Part shown: in pieces, positions 1,165-13,673 of the stretch
How positions within the stretch are numbered: position 1 is the stretch's first letter
Layout: every line of letters starts with the position of its first letter
DNA from: a virus
Length of the DNA: 25,311 bases
Virus record (IMG/VR): IMGVR_UViG_3300050033_000889
Coordinates: 1 to 25,311 of that record
Strand: one strand, 5' to 3'
The notes under the pieces: model-generated
Database searches by the model: none
Told to the model about the DNA's origin: nothing
What the model saw: the letters and a program-made list of their open reading frames with translations, nothing else
Position numbers and translations under genes: made by a program

Positions 1165-1214
1165 TGAACCACATGAAATTTAAAAGCAAAGGTTCGAAAT
1201 TTAAAGTTCACGCC

Positions 1215-1250
1215 GATCTTTCCTTCTAAGTCACAAAAGATCAGTCTTTT
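1215..1250 (+). terminator. Intrinsic terminator after the DUF262-HNH gene
   Basis: A 7-bp inverted repeat GATCTTT (1215-1221) / AAAGATC (1236-1242) is followed by a T-rich run (TCTTTTTTG). It lies about 50 nt after the nuclease stop codon and separates that gene from the structured leader that follows. Confidence 0.55.
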
Positions 1251-1341
1251 TTGCTTTGACCTGGCCCACCAACTTTTTTCTTCTCAAATACGCAGAAGAA
1301 GAAAGTTGCAAAAAAGAAGGGCGTTGGCCAGCGCACTTTAT

Positions 1342-1574
1342 TAAACTCGAAATTTCCGCAAAGTTACCTGCGAAAAATCCGCTTTCAGCTATAAAACTGT
1401 AAAGGGCGACCTCCTGATGGAGCTGTCGCTCTTCGAGTGTATTCAGATTGGTAATCAATCTGACCTACACCCTTGACATTATTTATTTTTCTCGGTATTC
1501 ACTTGGGCTAAAATTTCAATTTTAACCAGGTGGGCCAGAAACCTAAATAAGACCCCAGGGCAGGGGCGGATATC
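1342..1574 (+). promoter_or_regulatory. Structured leader, copy A, upstream of the ArdC-like gene
   Basis: This non-coding leader shares an ordered set of helices with 3661-3884. P1: GCGAC (1406-1410) / GTCGC (1425-1429), with inner CTCC (1411-1414) / GGAG (1419-1422). A small CTC-TTC-GAG hairpin follows (1429-1437). P2: TCAGATT (1443-1449) / AATCTGA (1457-1463). P3: GGT (1529-1531) / ACC (1541-1543) closes the conserved loop GGGCCAGAA. P4: CCCC (1553-1556) / GGGG (1563-1566) closes the loop AGGGCA and ends 8 nt before the ATG. GCC of the P3 loop is complementary to GGC of the P4 loop, so a loop-loop contact is possible. A conserved GCAAAGTTA (about 1358-1366) lies upstream. Further upstream, CTGGCC (1261-1266) / GGCCAG (1326-1331) brackets another imperfect stem. 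P4 beside the start codon suggests translational control; this is inference. Confidence 0.7.
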
Positions 1575-2516
1575 ATGAATAACTCACAGATCTACGCAGC
1601 CATCACCGAGAAGATCATTGCCAACCTTGAAACAGCCGGAAGCTGGATGAAGCTTTGGCAGGTTCCTTCCCCGGTCAGCATGAATGGCCATTATTACCGG
1701 GGCATCAATCGTCTGGTGCTTTCTTCCGATCCCTACAAGAGCCGGGTTTATGGCACATTCCAGCAGATTCGCTCCAACGGTGGACAGGTTCGCAAGGGCG
1801 AAAAATCCACCATCGTTGTGTTCTGGAAGACCGGCATTGAACAGGATGAAGCCACCGGCGTTACAAAGAAGACCTTCCTTCTGAGGTTTTACCATGTTTT
1901 CAATACCGAACAGGCCGACTTTGACGAGCAGGGTAAGCAAAAGATCGCCCAACTTCAAAGCCTGGTTGACGAAAAGGTCAATGATGAACACCTGGAGGCT
2001 GAATCAATCATCGAAGGCTACGCAGGCCGTCCGGAAATCATCTTCTCCGACAAAGACGACCGTGCATACTATGCCCCGCTTGCAGATCTGATCTCAGTTC
2101 CGGATAGGAAATATTTCACAAGCTCTTCTGCTTTCTACCGTGTGGTTTACCATGAGCTTGGTCACTCGACTGGCCACCCCAAACGGCTCAACCGCTATGA
2201 CGGAATGTCGAACAATTTTAGCGATATCCCATACAGTAAAGAGGAACTTGTTGCTGAACTCTGTTCTTCATTCCTCTCCGGTATCGCTCACCTTGACCCG
2301 GATATCCGAAACTCAGCCGCTTATATCAGGGGATGGGCATCGGTGCTCCGTGACAACCAGAAATGGGTCATGTGGGCTGCTGCAAGGGCTGAGAAGGCTG
2401 CCGATCATATCCTGGGCATTGACTCTTCTTACACTCCTTCAGAAGAAAAAACCACAGCAGAAGCTACCAGCGAAGTTCCTGTACTGGAGCCTGTCCTGGA
2501 AGACTCACCTTTTTAA
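1575..2516 (+). CDS. ArdC-like antirestriction protein (ssDNA-binding domain plus zincin metallopeptidase)
   Basis: The 313-aa protein starts with an ArdC-type ssDNA-binding domain (DUF1738; residues about 1-125, with WxxPWQ-like and 'GxNxLxL' features seen as KLWQVPSP and YYRGINRLVL). It continues into a metallopeptidase-like domain with HELGH at 193-197 followed by STGHPKRLNR, the arrangement of the polyvalent-protein zincin family. ArdC homologues on plasmids, ICEs and phages protect incoming single-stranded DNA from host restriction. The acidic C-terminus ends in LEDSPF, resembling an SSB C-terminal tip. The start is set by the end of the structured leader 8 nt upstream. A terminator follows at 2539, so this is a single-gene unit. 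Family assignment is secure; substrate and partner are inferred. Confidence 0.88.
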   Translation: MNNSQIYAAITEKIIANLETAGSWMKLWQVPSPVSMNGHYYRGINRLVLSSDPYKSRVYGTFQQIRSNGGQVRKGEKSTIVVFWKTGIEQDEATGVTKKTFLLRFYHVFNTEQADFDEQGKQKIAQLQSLVDEKVNDEHLEAESIIEGYAGRPEIIFSDKDDRAYYAPLADLISVPDRKYFTSSSAFYRVVYHELGHSTGHPKRLNRYDGMSNNFSDIPYSKEELVAELCSSFLSGIAHLDPDIRNSAAYIRGWASVLRDNQKWVMWAAARAEKAADHILGIDSSYTPSEEKTTAEATSEVPVLEPVLEDSPF

Positions 2517-2538
2517 CTGAACCATTCATTCAATAGAG

Positions 2539-2567
2539 CCATCCCGAGCAACCGGGGTGGTTTTTTC
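2539..2567 (+). terminator. Intrinsic terminator after the ArdC-like gene
   Basis: CCATCCC (2539-2545) pairs with GGGGTGG (2554-2560) through one G-U pair, followed immediately by six T residues. It sits 22 nt after the stop codon and before the next start at 2590. Confidence 0.8.
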
Positions 2568-2589
2568 ATTTACATTAAAACCAAAACCT

Positions 2590-2808
2590 ATGAACAATTT
2601 TAACAGTTATTCCGGGGATCCACGCCAGATCACAGCCCGCTTCGCAAGTAAATGTCACACCTGCGGCAAACCAATAAAAAAAGGCGAACAAATCATCTAC
2701 TGGCCAAATGGCAAACATGCCGGACATCTGAAATGCGATGAAGCTGACTACCGAAATTCTTTGGCTTCCTTTGAAGATGAAGAGAGGTACAACAGCCAGT
2801 ACCGATAA
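2590..2808 (+). CDS. Small zinc-finger-like protein, unknown function
   Basis: The 72-aa protein contains CHTCGKPIKKGEQ (C-x2-C near residues 22-25) and, after a WPNGKHAGHLKC stretch, His and Cys residues that could complete a C2HC zinc site. This resembles short PARP-type or 'inspection' zinc ribbons found in mobile-element proteins, but I cannot name a family with certainty. The ATG at 2590 was chosen because an earlier in-frame ATG at 2557 lies inside the upstream terminator and would add a low-complexity tail. The gene stands alone between two terminators, in the accessory block beside the ArdC-like gene, which points to nucleic-acid-related cargo. Function is unknown. Confidence 0.65.
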   Translation: MNNFNSYSGDPRQITARFASKCHTCGKPIKKGEQIIYWPNGKHAGHLKCDEADYRNSLASFEDEERYNSQYR

Positions 2809-2820
2809 TTCCGATTCTTA

Positions 2821-2851
2821 AGCCGCTGTGAGAAACCACAACGGCTTTTTT
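2821..2851 (+). terminator. Intrinsic terminator after the zinc-finger gene
   Basis: AGCCG (2821-2825) / CGGCT (2842-2846) and TGTG (2827-2830) / CACA (2837-2840) form one stem with a single mismatch. The stem is followed by a TTTTTTC run, 12 nt after the stop codon. Confidence 0.85.
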
Positions 2852-3185
2852 CTTGCTCGTTAATACGTGTAGTCATTAATTTTGTCTGGGATTTTGCGCT
2901 TTCGGGATGTCTATCATGCCTTTATGCAACTCTACGAGCATTTTTCCTTTGATCATTCAGCCCTTCTGCTTTCTTTTTCTGGGATGCAGTTCACATAAAT
3001 CTGATGTCTGTGGTCTTTGTTTAATTCCTATGCTAAGCTATTATTCCATTCCAGGGTGAAAGTGCTACTCATTCAAGAATTTTCCCGGCATATCCTGCAG
3101 GTATTCGGTATTCCAGTTCCTACTTGAGTGCCCCTCCATGGTCTTAATTACACTTGCATATAAATTTCACTTAAAAATCACAGCC
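2852..3185 (+). other. 334-nt intergenic stretch with no recognised gene
   Basis: No ORF with coding character is seen on either strand, and the structured leader present upstream of 1575 and 3885 is absent. It is T-rich on the + strand and probably contains the promoter and 5' leader of the gene at 3186, but no clear TTTG/TAnnTTTG pair was found. The minus strand carries a 24-codon ATG ORF around 3078-3152 that I do not consider a gene. Confidence 0.5.
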
Positions 3186-3497
3186 ATGAAAAATTTTGTA
3201 AAAAACTACATCGGAAAAGGAAAGAAAATCGAAGGCCTTGAAATCATTAAGATCAACTTCAAAATCGAAGATCTCGTAAAGTTCTCACACAAATACAAGG
3301 ATGAAGATTACATCTCCCTTGAAATCGCAAAACTGAAAAGCCCCGACCAATTCGGACATGACTACACCGCATATGTAAACCGCCTGGAAGAATCCGAAGT
3401 CAACGAACCGGTAAAGCCCACTGAAACTCCCAAAAAGAAACGCAATACCTCAAAGAAGGTTTCCAAAGACACGCCATCAGAAGAAATCCCCTTCTGA
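3186..3497 (+). CDS. Small basic protein with SSB-like acidic tip, unknown function
   Basis: The 103-aa protein has a folded-looking N-terminal part of about 65 residues rich in Lys/Glu and aromatic residues. A flexible Pro/Lys/Thr-rich linker follows (residues about 75-97), and the protein ends in SEEIPF. This layout (small globular domain, disordered linker, acidic-hydrophobic tip ending in PF) copies bacterial SSB, though I see no clear OB-fold signature. The ATG at 3186 was preferred over the one at 3138, which would add 16 residues from the intergenic leader. Its neighbours are ArdC-like and other mobile-element accessory genes. Possible role: a DNA-binding protein that engages host SSB-interacting factors. 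That is inference; no family is recognised. Confidence 0.65.
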   Translation: MKNFVKNYIGKGKKIEGLEIIKINFKIEDLVKFSHKYKDEDYISLEIAKLKSPDQFGHDYTAYVNRLEESEVNEPVKPTETPKKKRNTSKKVSKDTPSEEIPF

Positions 3498-3519
3498 TCA
3501 ACACAGAAACCCTGAGAAA

Positions 3520-3547
3520 GGCTGCCTCTCGGCAGTCTTTTTTTTTG
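3520..3547 (+). terminator. Intrinsic terminator after the gene at 3186
   Basis: GGCTGCC (3520-3526) pairs with GGCAGTC (3531-3537), including one G-U pair, around a TCTC loop. A run of nine T residues follows directly. Confidence 0.85.
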
Positions 3548-3660
3548 TTCGCGAATCAGGCTTTTTTCTTTGAGACCAGGACAAAGAAGAAACCCTGCCA
3601 AAAAAGAAATCCCTTCCGGGCAGCTTTTGAAAAAAGCAAGCAAAAGCCAACCCACTATTA

Positions 3661-3884
3661 CTCAAAATTTGCAGCAAAGTTAAACTCGTGAAAATCTTTT
3701 TCGCTAAGAGTGACCGCCTCCAGGCATCGTCACCCTTCGGGTTCATTCAGATTTTATTGCATAAAATCATGACCCAAACTCTTGCTTAAAATTTTCACTC
3801 CGTTTGTTCCCGGTGGCATAAATTTTTCTTAAACCCCGGCGAGCCAGATGCCTAAAAAAGTCTGCAAGGCAGCAGCAAAACACA
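3661..3884 (+). promoter_or_regulatory. Structured leader, copy B, upstream of the gene at 3885
   Basis: This is the second copy of the leader at 1342-1574, with the same order and geometry of helices. P1: GTGAC (3710-3714) / GTCAC (3729-3733), inner GCCT (3716-3719) / AGGC (3722-3725). CCC-TTC-GGG at 3733-3741. P2: TCAGATTTTAT (3747-3757) / ATAAAATC(A)TGA (3761-3772). P3: GGC (3838-3840) / GCC (3850-3852) with loop GAGCCAGAT. P4: CTGC (3862-3865) / GCAG (3872-3875) with loop AAGGCA, ending 9 nt before the ATG. Compared with copy A, several pairs change on both sides while pairing is kept, which argues for a functional RNA rather than recent duplication. Conserved primary sequence includes GCAAAGTTA, ATTCAGATT, GCCAGA, CCTAAA and ARGGCA. 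Upstream, GCTTTTTTC (3560-3568) / GAAAAAAGC (3629-3637) encloses further stems. Confidence 0.7.
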
Positions 3885-4331
3885 ATGACAAAGATTACAG
3901 CACCAGTACTGAAGCCGACCAACGGCGGAGCATCCAAGGAAGAAAACGCAGTTCTTGCAGCTGCAAAAACGGTTCTCAACCCTGAAGAGAAAATAACCGA
4001 AGAGCAGAAACCGCTCTTGAAGGTCGAACCTGAAAAACCTGTTGTTCCTGCTCCTGAACCGGTCAAGGAAATGACCCTGATGGAGAAGATCCTCAAGGTC
4101 GAAAACCTCCAGTTGGTCATCGAAAAAAGGGCGAAGCTGGTCCAGACCCGCAGCGAACTGGAAAGGTTCCAGACGGCATCTAATGATTTCAACTGCTCCA
4201 TGCGGCTGAATGACTCAGACGGTAATGTCTTCACCACCAGTTTTACCCCTGGAATCAAGAAAGTCATTGATTTTCTCAAGTCATCATTCGATTCAAGCAT
4301 CGCTGATGTTGAAGGCAAAATCAAGTTCTGA
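3885..4331 (+). CDS. Hypothetical mobile-element protein with predicted coiled coil
   Basis: The 148-aa protein has a Pro/Glu/Lys-rich N-terminal half, probably disordered (residues about 1-60, with repeated EPEKP/PEPV patterns). A helical, probably coiled-coil segment follows (about 63-100), then a C-terminal module containing DSDGNVFTTSFTPGIKKVI. I recognise the general type as a short conserved protein of Bacteroidota plasmids, ICEs and phages, often near ArdC-like genes, but no function is known to me. Its start lies directly after helix P4 of the structured leader. It shares that leader with the ArdC-like gene, suggesting the two are regulated together although they are 1.4 kb apart. A strong terminator follows. 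Confidence 0.7.
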   Translation: MTKITAPVLKPTNGGASKEENAVLAAAKTVLNPEEKITEEQKPLLKVEPEKPVVPAPEPVKEMTLMEKILKVENLQLVIEKRAKLVQTRSELERFQTASNDFNCSMRLNDSDGNVFTTSFTPGIKKVIDFLKSSFDSSIADVEGKIKF

Positions 4332-10042: not shown

Positions 10043-11425
10043 ATGACACCAACGCCAGAAAAACCAAAAGATCCAAACAAGGTTGAAGGGATACCATCAA
10101 AGGAGTTATTTATTACTATGTTAGTTAAAGATATTACCCTTAAAGACGCAATTGGTGATTTGGTCGATAATTCTATTGATGCTGCAAACATTAATGCACC
10201 CAAAAAAAATGCTTTGAGTGGTTTCTCTATCACAATAACCATTGATAAAAATCATTTTGAGATTATAGATAATGCTGGAGGTATTGAAGAAAATGTTGCA
10301 CGAGAATCTGCATTTAAATTGGGCAAACCTAAAAATTATGAGGTTGGCAAGCATACAATCGGACAGTTTGGTATTGGGATGAAAAGAGCTTTTTTCAAAA
10401 TCGGTGAAATGATATCAGTTGAATCAGTAGCCCCCAAATCTTCGTTTAAAATTAATATTCCTGTTCGTGATTGGCGAGACAGAAAAGATGAAACAGATTG
10501 GGATTTCTCCTTTGAAACAATAAAGAAAGAACCAAGTTTGTTAAAAGATACTAAGACAAAAATTTCAATTACTGAACTCAAGGAGGATGCTAAAAAGCAA
10601 TTCGCTGATCCAAAGTTTCTTATTGATTTGAAAAATGAAATCGCTTTAGAACACCTGGTTGCTATTAATAATGGATTAACCATTTATATCAATTCAGAAA
10701 AATTAAAAGCTCCCAAAATTACACTCATATATGATACTGATGTCCAGCCTTGTTATTGGAAGCATATTTTTTCTGATGGATTGCGTGCTGAAATCATAGC
10801 AGGCGTTTCTGAAGATATTGGTGAAGAAGGGGGGTGGTATGTGTTTTGTAATGATCGGTTAATTCTAGGTCCTGACACAACCGAAGTCACTGGTTGGACT
10901 GGAGGTAAAGGTAAAGGTGAAAGGGGGGAACGAAAGGCAAAAGAATTGCCAAAATATCATGATCAATTTTTCAGATTTAGAGGTTACGTATTTTTTAATG
11001 CAGAAGACTCCTCCAAGCTTCCGTGGAATACTTCAAAAACGGGAATGGATAAGGACTCACCGCATTTCATATACGTAAGAACTCAAATGATTATTATGGC
11101 AAAACAGGTGAAGAGTTTGATGGATGACATGAAAAAGGAACGCGAGAAGGGAAATCCATTAGAAAATCAAACGCTTAATAGAAGAATTGAGAATGCAAAA
11201 GTTGTTACGGTAAAAGAAGTGTTGAGTCACAGAGCTGAACTTCCGGTTGTATATTCTTATCCAAAAAACTTACTAAATCCTATTGAGGCTACGAAGAATG
11301 TTTTGCCTATAGCCTTTACTAAGCCCAAAAAAGAGGTTATAAAAGCAATGGAACATTTTGGTGTTGATGATCCGAATGCTGCAGGATCACTGGCATTCGA
11401 CTATTTTTTTGAAAACGCAATCTAA
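10043..11425 (+). CDS. GHKL-type ATPase (MORC/paraMORC-like), cargo operon gene 1
   Basis: The 460-aa protein has an N-terminal GHKL (Bergerat) ATP-binding domain: N box DLVDNSIDAA (about 39-48), G1 box DNAGG (76-80) and G2/lid box GQFGIGMKRA (107-116). The usual general-base Glu of ELxxNSxDA is Asp39 here. The middle contains a second alpha/beta domain, as in MutL/MORC (LPWNTSKTGMD near 330). The C-terminus is helical, with no endonuclease motif that I can see. Established knowledge: MORC-like and MutL-like ATPases occur in bacterial operons with DNA methyltransferases and are linked to restriction (Iyer, Abhiman and Aravind). Here it is gene 1 of a three-gene unit with a cytosine methyltransferase. 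A role in sensing or clamping DNA in a restriction or defence system is inferred. Confidence 0.8.
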   Translation: MTPTPEKPKDPNKVEGIPSKELFITMLVKDITLKDAIGDLVDNSIDAANINAPKKNALSGFSITITIDKNHFEIIDNAGGIEENVARESAFKLGKPKNYEVGKHTIGQFGIGMKRAFFKIGEMISVESVAPKSSFKINIPVRDWRDRKDETDWDFSFETIKKEPSLLKDTKTKISITELKEDAKKQFADPKFLIDLKNEIALEHLVAINNGLTIYINSEKLKAPKITLIYDTDVQPCYWKHIFSDGLRAEIIAGVSEDIGEEGGWYVFCNDRLILGPDTTEVTGWTGGKGKGERGERKAKELPKYHDQFFRFRGYVFFNAEDSSKLPWNTSKTGMDKDSPHFIYVRTQMIIMAKQVKSLMDDMKKEREKGNPLENQTLNRRIENAKVVTVKEVLSHRAELPVVYSYPKNLLNPIEATKNVLPIAFTKPKKEVIKAMEHFGVDDPNAAGSLAFDYFFENAI

Positions 11426-11433
11426 TAAGTAAG

Positions 11434-12453
11434 ATGGCTGAAATTCTACCTACTAAAACAAATGCGGAACGAATAAATTACACCCTCAGACCTGCAAAGC
11501 ATGCTGAGCGAAAAATGTTTTGTGAAACATTCGGGAGGTTATCGGCCTTGGATAATCTAAAGAATTATCGTTACATAGGCATGGGCTCTGCATATTTTTC
11601 TGATTTTAGTTTATTTCACAAAACACTGGGAATATCGAAATTAGTGAGTATTGAAGGTGAGGATGAAGGCTATCAAAAAGAACGAATTAACTTCAATAAA
11701 CCATACTCGTGCATAGATGTTAAATTTGGATATACACATGAAGTATTACCAGCACTACCATGGGATCAATGGAAAAATAAAAGTATAGTGTGGTTAGACT
11801 ATGTAGATTCATTAATGAGTTATATGTTAGGTGATCTGGATACTGTAATATTCAATATTCAACCAGGTAGCGTCATTTTAATTAGCGTTAATATTGAAAA
11901 AGAAGTCAATAATAACCCAAATCTTAAAATAAGTGATAAAGACTACCGTATTAAAAAATTAATTGAAAATGTCGGCAGGGAAAATATTCCCACCAGGGCA
12001 TATGATATGAACCTAAGTGTCGAAAAAAATAAAATAATTATTCGTGAGATTATCAATAATTCGATATTAACTGCTTTAAAAAATAAAAATTGCGGACTGG
12101 AGGCAGAAAATCAAATTCTTTATCAACAATTATTCAATATTTATTATAAGGATAGTGCAGATATGCTTACAGTTGGAGGGATTATTTACAATAAAGAACA
12201 GGCTGTCATATTGAATAAAATGTTCAGTAACCTTGATTTTGTGCGGTCTGATGAAAAATGCTTTGATTTGGTTGTTCCTAAACTTACATATCGGGAAATC
12301 CATGCATTAGATAAATTACTGCCTAATAAGAAAACTAATAAAACGGGCATTGCCAAAACTGGTAGAAAGAAAATTCCGTTATCTGAAGAGGATATTAAAA
12401 ATTACGCCAAAATATATCGCTATTTTCCAACTTTTACTGAAGCAAACCTATGA
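11434..12453 (+). CDS. Unknown protein with methyltransferase-like N-terminal fold, cargo operon gene 2
   Basis: The 339-aa protein contains YRYIGMGSAYFSDFSLFHK (about residues 49-67) followed by SKLVSIEGEDEGYQ. This resembles motif I and the acidic end of strand 2 of a Rossmann methyltransferase. WLDYVDSLM (about 125-133) sits where an acidic motif IV would be. No NPPY, PPC or nuclease signature was found, so it may be a divergent or inactive methyltransferase, or an effector with a related fold. The C-terminal region has a Lys-rich segment (KKTNKTGIAKTGRKKIP) followed by a short helical end that could bind DNA. It starts 8 nt after the ATPase stop and overlaps the methyltransferase start by 4 nt, so all three proteins are expected together. 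As the operon's only unexplained protein, it is the best candidate effector. Confidence 0.75.
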   Translation: MAEILPTKTNAERINYTLRPAKHAERKMFCETFGRLSALDNLKNYRYIGMGSAYFSDFSLFHKTLGISKLVSIEGEDEGYQKERINFNKPYSCIDVKFGYTHEVLPALPWDQWKNKSIVWLDYVDSLMSYMLGDLDTVIFNIQPGSVILISVNIEKEVNNNPNLKISDKDYRIKKLIENVGRENIPTRAYDMNLSVEKNKIIIREIINNSILTALKNKNCGLEAENQILYQQLFNIYYKDSADMLTVGGIIYNKEQAVILNKMFSNLDFVRSDEKCFDLVVPKLTYREIHALDKLLPNKKTNKTGIAKTGRKKIPLSEEDIKNYAKIYRYFPTFTEANL

Positions 12454-13673
12454 AAAAGCAAGAGCAGGTATTTAAAGTGCTCGATTTATTTGCTGGTGCA
12501 GGCGGTTTTGGACTTGGATTTAGTTTGGCGAGCAAATCATACAAACTAATTTGTTCACTTGAGGTAGATAAATGGGCTGTTGAAACGTTAAAAGCGAATA
12601 ACAACGACGGACAGAAAATTATCGAAGATGATATTCGCAATTATGATAACGCTGATAAAATCCTCAATGTTTGTAATGTAAAACCGGATATCATTATTGG
12701 AGGACCTCCCTGTCAAGGATTTAGTACTGCTAAGTCAATAAAAAACCCTAAAGATCCCAGGAATTCCCTATTTAGAGATTTTGCCTTGTGGGTAGATGTA
12801 TTAAAACCAAAGGTCTTCGTTATGGAAAACGTTCGAGGGCTTTTAAGGGGGAAAAATGAAAATGGAGAAAAAGTAATTGATATTATAAAGGAAACATTTA
12901 GTGCAATCGGATATTTAACCAACATATGGGAACTTAATGCAGCCCATTATGGAGTACCTCAAAATAGAGAGCGAATATTTATCGTCGGAAATAGGTTCAA
13001 TCAGGAAATATCTAAACCCCAAGCTACCCATTATCTTCCTCAAGAAAAACAAAAGCTGAATGGATCGGCACATTCATTAAGTCCAGCAATTAATGTTATT
13101 AAAGCAATTGGTGATTTACCTCCACTTAAAGCGGGAACTGGGGCAGAAGAGGCAAATTATACTTTGAAACCTAAAAATGATTTTCAAAAAGGATGTAGAA
13201 CTTCAGTTTCAACCTTGTATAATCATGTTACTATGGCTCATACTCAGAGAATCGTTCAACGGTATGAGCAAATTCTAAATGGACTTTCACTTGAAGAGAT
13301 ACCTGACGAGTTACAAGTAAGAAAAAGGAATGGAAATGGTGAACTTTCTACATGTGATTTCAATTCAAATTATAGGCATCTTAAACCCAAGATGATAGCT
13401 TACACTATTCCTGCTTCATTTTATTCAAATTTCGTTCATCCTAATCAACCAAGAAATATTACTTCTCGAGAAGCCGCACGACTGCAATCATTTCCAGATA
13501 ATTACATTTTTAAGGGCAAAAGAACGCAGATTTCTTCTAAATTGTTGAAGCAACTCGGGAAAGATGATCAAAATTATCTTTCTCAATATAATCAGATTGG
13601 TAATGCTGTCCCCCCTTTATTAGCAAAAGCTATTGCTACAAAAATTTTACCTTTCTTGAAAAAACATAAATAG
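12450..13673 (+). CDS. Cytosine-C5 DNA methyltransferase, cargo operon gene 3
   Basis: The 407-aa protein contains all main C5-methyltransferase motifs in order: motif I DLFAGAGGFGLGF (about 12-24), motif IV GGPPCQGFS with catalytic Cys88, motif VI ENV at 126-128, motif VIII QNRERIFIVG from 171, a target-recognition region of roughly 140 residues, motif IX with REAARLQSFPD, and motif X QIGNAVPP from 382. It transfers a methyl group from SAM to C5 of cytosine, probably protecting DNA from a cognate restriction activity. No standard restriction endonuclease gene is adjacent; the ATPase and the unknown protein occupy that place. The AT-rich composition matches the rest of the island and differs from the flanking phage genes. 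Activity is well supported; the recognition sequence cannot be read from here. Confidence 0.95.
   Translation: MKKQEQVFKVLDLFAGAGGFGLGFSLASKSYKLICSLEVDKWAVETLKANNNDGQKIIEDDIRNYDNADKILNVCNVKPDIIIGGPPCQGFSTAKSIKNPKDPRNSLFRDFALWVDVLKPKVFVMENVRGLLRGKNENGEKVIDIIKETFSAIGYLTNIWELNAAHYGVPQNRERIFIVGNRFNQEISKPQATHYLPQEKQKLNGSAHSLSPAINVIKAIGDLPPLKAGTGAEEANYTLKPKNDFQKGCRTSVSTLYNHVTMAHTQRIVQRYEQILNGLSLEEIPDELQVRKRNGNGELSTCDFNSNYRHLKPKMIAYTIPASFYSNFVHPNQPRNITSREAARLQSFPDNYIFKGKRTQISSKLLKQLGKDDQNYLSQYNQIGNAVPPLLAKAIATKILPFLKKHK

Follow-up and report, generated by a model that had tools for sequence, protein, structure and literature searches.

The 25,311-nucleotide (nt) stretch analyzed here, called the window throughout, comprises positions 1 to 25,311 of the IMG/VR virus record IMGVR_UViG_3300050033_000889 and encodes a phage tape-measure protein and a phage integrase. 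It carries two copies of a structured element, which we label copy 1 (1342-1574, before an ArdC-like gene) and copy 2 (3661-3884, before the gene o148). An earlier note on this DNA had read each copy as a cis-regulatory leader RNA. The elements are present in the sequence, as are the compensatory base changes that the note had listed between copies 1 and 2: GCGAC/GTCGC versus GTGAC/GTCAC in P1, CTCC/GGAG versus GCCT/AGGC in inner P1, CTC/GAG versus CCC/GGG in the triloop hairpin, GGT/ACC versus GGC/GCC in P3, and CCCC/GGGG versus CTGC/GCAG in P4. Absent from that note were the nested outer helices H1 to H3, by which the entire 5' domain is closed, a promoter box on the minus strand of the left arm, and the modularity of the element. 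We propose, with slightly better than even confidence, that the element serves mobile elements of Bacteroidales as an expression cassette in two parts, in which a promoter formed by the folded template strand would be joined to an RNA module in the 5' untranslated region (5'-UTR). The features of the two copies and their genes are as follows.

1349 to 1517, minus strand: 5' domain of copy 1, a proposed template-strand hairpin promoter (minus-strand DNA fold); helices H1 1349-1355/1511-1517, TACC/GGTA 1365-1368/1494-1497, H2 1372-1378/1485-1491, H3 1402-1406/1470-1474, apical hairpins 1407-1469
1359 to 1366, minus strand: left-arm match in copy 1 to the -7 box of the host's housekeeping (sigma-ABfr) promoter, TAACTTTG, lacking TTG at a gap of 21 nt
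1518 to 1574, plus strand: 3' module of copy 1, with stem A at 1529-1531/1541-1543 (its loop GCC at 1534-1536) and stem B at 1553-1556/1563-1566 (its loop AGGGCA at 1557-1562), the ATG following after 8 nt
1575 to 2516, plus strand: ArdC-like antirestriction protein (ArdcN PF08401 and MPTase-PolyVal PF18818)
3664 to 3826, minus strand: 5' domain of copy 2 (minus-strand DNA fold); helices H1 3664-3670/3820-3826, AAAC/GTTT 3682-3685/3802-3805, H2 3688-3695/3791-3798, H3 3703-3711/3778-3785, apical hairpins 3712-3777
3675 to 3682, minus strand: left-arm match in copy 2 to the sigma-ABfr -7 box, TAACTTTG; near the -33 position it has TTAG, not TTG
3827 to 3884, plus strand: 3' module of copy 2, with stem A at 3838-3840/3850-3852 (its loop GCC at 3843-3845) and stem B at 3862-3865/3872-3875 (its loop AAGGCA at 3866-3871)
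3885 to 4331, plus strand: o148, a 148-amino-acid protein with no assigned function and no Pfam or PHROG match

Two separable modules in one element

Alignment of left against right arms showed the 5' domain (~165 to 175 nt) to be a single long imperfect hairpin of nested covarying helices with a variable tip; in copy 1 the left arm contains an extra hairpin-forming insertion. Among promoter-type copies, complementarity of an arm to its own partner was 47.4, compared to 39.2 (standard deviation, 5.2) with mismatched mates, while it was almost nil (40.9 versus 39.5) upstream of modules that lie directly after a gene. Among 26 relatives of copy 2, the number of pairs changed on both sides was 22, versus 12.0 ± 1.9 in shuffled alignments and at most 10 in slid ones. 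Folded as DNA, the minus strand of copy 1 reached -32.1 kcal/mol (z = -6.2), and that of copy 2 had a z of -3.5.

The 3' module (~45 nt) consists of stem A, with the loop GCCAGA, and stem B, with the loop ARGGCA. Across 94 distinct modules, in an alignment that was fitted to the model and hence leans toward it, the covariation score was 0.506 (0.170 ± 0.011 shuffled), standard pairs filled 97.1% of pair cells (80.0 ± 0.8 shuffled, at most 46% slid), and 120 cells were changed on both sides (26.7 shuffled); five of the eight pairs changed on both sides. An unfitted MAFFT alignment of 30 modules gave the same picture. Stem B alone occurs as CCCC/GGGG, CTGC/GCAG, CCGC/GCGG, CTCA/TGAG, CCTA/TAGG, and other versions, with G.U intermediates in five distinct versions versus A.C in one. 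The complementarity between the loop sequences GCC and GGC, pointed out earlier in the window, was borne out in relatives: the contact is swapped to ACC/GGT in three genomes (L145, L146, and L164/L168) and is GCC/GGT in L134, and this replacement supports a kissing interaction between the loops of the two hairpins. The distance of 8 to 9 nt to the ATG, seen in the window, also holds for the 3' module in relatives. With covarying stems, conserved loops, and a fixed distance to the start codons of unrelated genes, the 3' module represents, in our view, a new family of cis-acting RNAs. Because it keeps this position ahead of unrelated start codons, we infer that it probably acts in translation control.

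The 3' module tolerates extra hairpins, which enter the stem A loop always at an identical position (L157 9806-9917 and 12333-12447, L120 1002-1106, L124 1257-1340, L144 1501-1583); those in L157 and L120 are apparently repetitive palindromic DNA. Divergent 3' modules with AGGGTA/ACCAG loops were found at L164 6129-6188 (minus strand), L146 1501-1560, and L145 1501-1561, two of them preceding RadC-like genes, which hints that the family is wider than our covariance model of the 3' part of the element (R1) detects. One Bacteroidales contig with a 3' module also carries a DUF805b RNA (RF02914) above the gathering score (L159 1235-1268, minus strand).

The two halves also occur apart. The 3' module stands alone right after an upstream stop codon, ahead of successive cistrons of an operon, about nine times consecutively in L157 and between RadC and the following gene in L074. 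Conversely, no 3' module was recognized with the 5' domain in L048, in the L038 copy at RadC, or in one copy from L009. Since each module occurs without the other, the 5' domain and the 3' module are separate devices, and the element is not the single unit it had been taken for.

Homologues are numerous and have covarying pairs, and they precede ArdC and other unrelated genes. The family occurs in Bacteroidales phages, prophages, and mobilizable elements, with more than 100 copies, most of them within double-stranded DNA tailed phages; in all contigs with at least two copies (40/40), the copies are co-oriented on one strand. A scan of 84,980 species genomes returned 33 loci, nearly all Bacteroidales (one, in Desulfotignum, sits within a gene and is a chance match), and additional copies turned up in phage contigs by pattern scanning. 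An initial pattern scan for the 5' core had given 1 true match in 23, the rest being mainly chance matches in GC-rich phages. R1 matches 33 of 34 source records, with up to 16 copies per genome, and 27 of 295 genomes in the order of Draconibacterium, where the weakest matches are doubtful. As had been expected, no named family describes the element: Rfam 15 gave no match to the window at gathering score, nothing relevant for 1200-4000 at E values up to 5, and no match describing the elements at nine loci with relatives at E values up to 1. The element family is thus conserved and, so far, undescribed.

The promoter box and the proposed folding strand

The -7 box of housekeeping promoters in Bacteroidota reads TAHHTTTG, and transcripts begin 4 to 5 nt further on (PMC6847099), and a -33 TTTG motif has been deduced in B. 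fragilis (PMC7366714). For 43 independent promoter-type clusters, we counted -7 boxes over the 250 nt that precede the 3' module, without anchoring the arms on AAnnTA, since an anchored count is biased. TAHHTTTG was present on the minus strand in 26 of the 43 clusters (3.75 expected from shuffles); 22 of these 26 boxes lie in the left-arm zone, 98 to 187 nt upstream, and the other four in the right arm or further off. On the plus strand, the same region had a box in none of the 43 clusters (3.5 expected), nor did any of 34 clusters show a plus-strand box when the 150 nt to the left of their hairpins were examined. Compared with 150 control regions, taken upstream of other genes on these contigs, which had 24 minus-strand and 24 plus-strand boxes, both the minus-strand excess (Fisher, p = 8e-6) and the plus-strand absence (p = 0.003) were significant. 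The occurrence of TTG upstream of the box peaks at a gap of 21 nt.

The window provides an internal control: at 2853-2884, an ordinary plus-strand promoter with the same gap, TTG-N21-TAATTTTG (box at 2877), precedes a neighboring open reading frame (ORF) of 103 amino acids that is without the element. The two element boxes are the sole minus-strand boxes in the window's intergenic DNA left of the structural genes. As the box is on the minus strand and none is on the plus strand, the predicted promoter of the element, in duplex DNA, faces away from its gene. Together, these counts are strong sequence evidence for such a promoter. Invertible promoters are common in Bacteroidales; an invertible promoter was ruled out here, as none of the 43 clusters has the box in the opposite orientation.

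Mismatches within the closing stem bear on which strand folds. Read on the plus strand, single mismatches flanked by pairs were A.C (and so G.T on the minus strand) in 18 contexts versus G.T in 5 (p about 0.02 against composition), and in the copy 2 family six pairs were of the A.C type on the plus strand versus one of the G.T type. These wobbles favor a fold of the minus strand, for which we consider the evidence moderate. Raw folding energy also favored the minus strand (56/72), a preference that was gone after dinucleotide-shuffle normalization in 34 clusters, and it was not used.

Proposed mechanism and alternatives

With a minus-strand box in the left arm and no box on the plus strand, the 5' domain may be read as a hairpin promoter that works like Frpo, one of the single-stranded DNA promoters (Frpo/ssi) of the conjugative plasmids F and ColIb-P9 (PMC9849209, PMC11541004). 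The minus strand, which is the template of the gene, would fold on itself and thereby assemble the promoter: TAHHTTTG lies in the complement of the left arm, frequently preceded by TTG at a gap of 21 nt as in the sigma-ABfr promoter, and in the folded strand the arm with the box would serve as non-template strand and the other arm as template. Host RNA polymerase, we infer, would then start near the hairpin base, leave the hairpin there, and enter the gene, such that the mRNA would begin roughly at the start of the 3' module. The latter would form the 5'-UTR, ending 8 to 9 nt before the AUG, and would impose a translation control common to the genes of the element. Expression would probably come early after entry.

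The proposal that a single structured leader RNA spans all ~230 nt, transcribed from a gene-direction promoter upstream of the left arm, has in its favor strong RNA folds (z = -5.6 for copy 1 and -3.4 for copy 2 against shuffles), covariation across the entire element, a tip with UUCG-like apical loops and some G.U pairs, and a 3' half that is clearly RNA. It calls, however, for a plus-strand box, and none was found either upstream of the 3' module or left of the hairpin; it leaves the conserved minus-strand box of the left arm unexplained, the wobbles of the closing stem read A.C, not G.U, on the plus strand, and the halves are separable. We therefore consider it rather unlikely for the element as a whole: a cis-regulatory RNA holds for the last ~50 nt, to which RNA-like behavior is limited, and is probably wrong for the rest. 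Much less probable still is a role of the hairpin as a single-strand initiation site (sso/ssi), at which RNA polymerase would prime second-strand DNA synthesis with expression as a by-product or absent. The folded-strand promoter geometry would be identical, and ssi sites and Frpo have been treated together (PMC11541004), but priming would need neither one copy per gene or operon, nor a constant orientation toward the gene, nor the 3' module that usually follows before the ATG. We give equally little weight to an ordinary duplex promoter that would make a leftward antisense or regulatory RNA, with the hairpin as the binding site of a regulator. By sequence, TTG-N21-TAHHTTTG is a good duplex promoter; yet the left neighbors of both copies in the window are plus-strand genes, so that a divergent gene to be expressed is missing, the covarying hairpin would not be part of a leftward RNA, and the missing plus-strand promoter would stay unexplained.

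Several observations weigh against the folded-template-strand promoter that we favor. TTG at the 21-nt gap is missing from both window copies, and about half of the clusters are without a perfect left-arm -7 box. A pre-melted -7 box was sought in the predicted DNA fold and not found (mean pairing, 0.55). Shuffle-normalized folding over 34 clusters showed no strand preference, and the apical hairpins hold G.U pairs on the plus strand, with no minus-strand wobble bias there. Finally, the tailed phages that house most copies have no known single-stranded stage, and cruciform extrusion of so long a hairpin would be costly. Single strands or cruciforms might arise in such phages through replication, end resection, or supercoil-driven extrusion like that of phage N4.

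A broader conclusion, which we hold tentatively and at somewhat less than even confidence, is that template-strand hairpin promoters for the host sigma-ABfr polymerase drive anti-restriction and DNA-handling genes in Bacteroidota mobile elements, double-stranded DNA tailed phages among them, and that these promoters are joined to a new kissing-hairpin RNA by which the translation of every cistron is controlled. The hairpin with its minus-strand TAHHTTTG, followed by the 3' module, would then be a sequence handle for early anti-defense genes in Bacteroidota. The 3' module itself is a candidate new RNA family for Rfam and flags what may be an unexplored regulon of small genes with no assigned function beside ArdC, SSB, and RadC.

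Genomic context and known systems

The gene most often found behind the element is o148; the others include ArdC, SSB, RadC, a DnaJ-like protein, and small proteins with no assigned function. The presence of ArdC, SSB, and RadC supports the suggested tie to early or transfer-type functions. Most other genomes are phages or prophages with the order o103-ArdC-zinc ribbon-o148-o115-o445, in which o445 is, by position alone, a probable portal. Protein searches of plasmid and phage collections gave only distant ArdC homologues. A relaxase and a type IV (T4) coupling protein lie 7 to 11 kb from a copy in two genomes, and a third genome has a conjugation protein on the contig of the element; as searches for relaxases and DUF3875 tied only a few genomes to conjugation, we do not claim a purely conjugative origin. 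Elsewhere in the window, ORFs of 460 and 339 amino acids and a DNA cytosine methyltransferase lie amid phage structural genes (10043-13673); this looks like a modification or anti-restriction cassette, with the methyltransferase as its one identified member. The left end (1-1164) encodes a GmrSD-like nuclease with an HNH domain, which matches the PADLOC type II restriction enzyme model.

We know of no precedent for a folded-strand promoter read by host RNA polymerase in a tailed phage. A related system is that of the early promoters of phage N4 (PMC4496689), which are read by the virion RNA polymerase. The likeness lies in a template-strand hairpin promoter, exposed by supercoiling, in a double-stranded DNA phage. 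N4 relies on an injected phage polymerase and short hairpins, whereas the present element has boxes for the host polymerase and a hairpin of ~170 nt.

The STAXI (RF01728) and radC (RF01754) motifs (PMC2864571) also resemble the element, the former as a structured motif near SSB, antirestriction, integrase, and topoisomerase genes and the latter in taking its name from the gene that accompanies it. The authors of STAXI raised the same question of RNA versus single-stranded DNA (PMC2864571). Both motifs, however, belong to Proteobacteria and have other structures, STAXI units being tandem pseudoknots, and neither covariance model matched over the element.

The likeness to Frpo/ssi covers several features: a long imperfect hairpin has promoter boxes in its stem that would be meaningful, and directed at the gene, only in the folded strand (with a perfect box in the left-arm zone in 22 of 43 clusters), and it lies upstream of anti-restriction, SSB, and other leading-region or anti-defense genes (ArdC, SSB, RadC, and others), in several copies per element. 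Unlike Frpo, with its TTGACA/TATAAT, the present element has sigma-ABfr boxes (TTG/TAHHTTTG), belongs to Bacteroidota with many copies in tailed phages, and is fused to a separate RNA module. If our reading is correct, single-strand promoters would extend from the sigma-70 of Proteobacteria to the distinct sigma factor of Bacteroidota and to phages.

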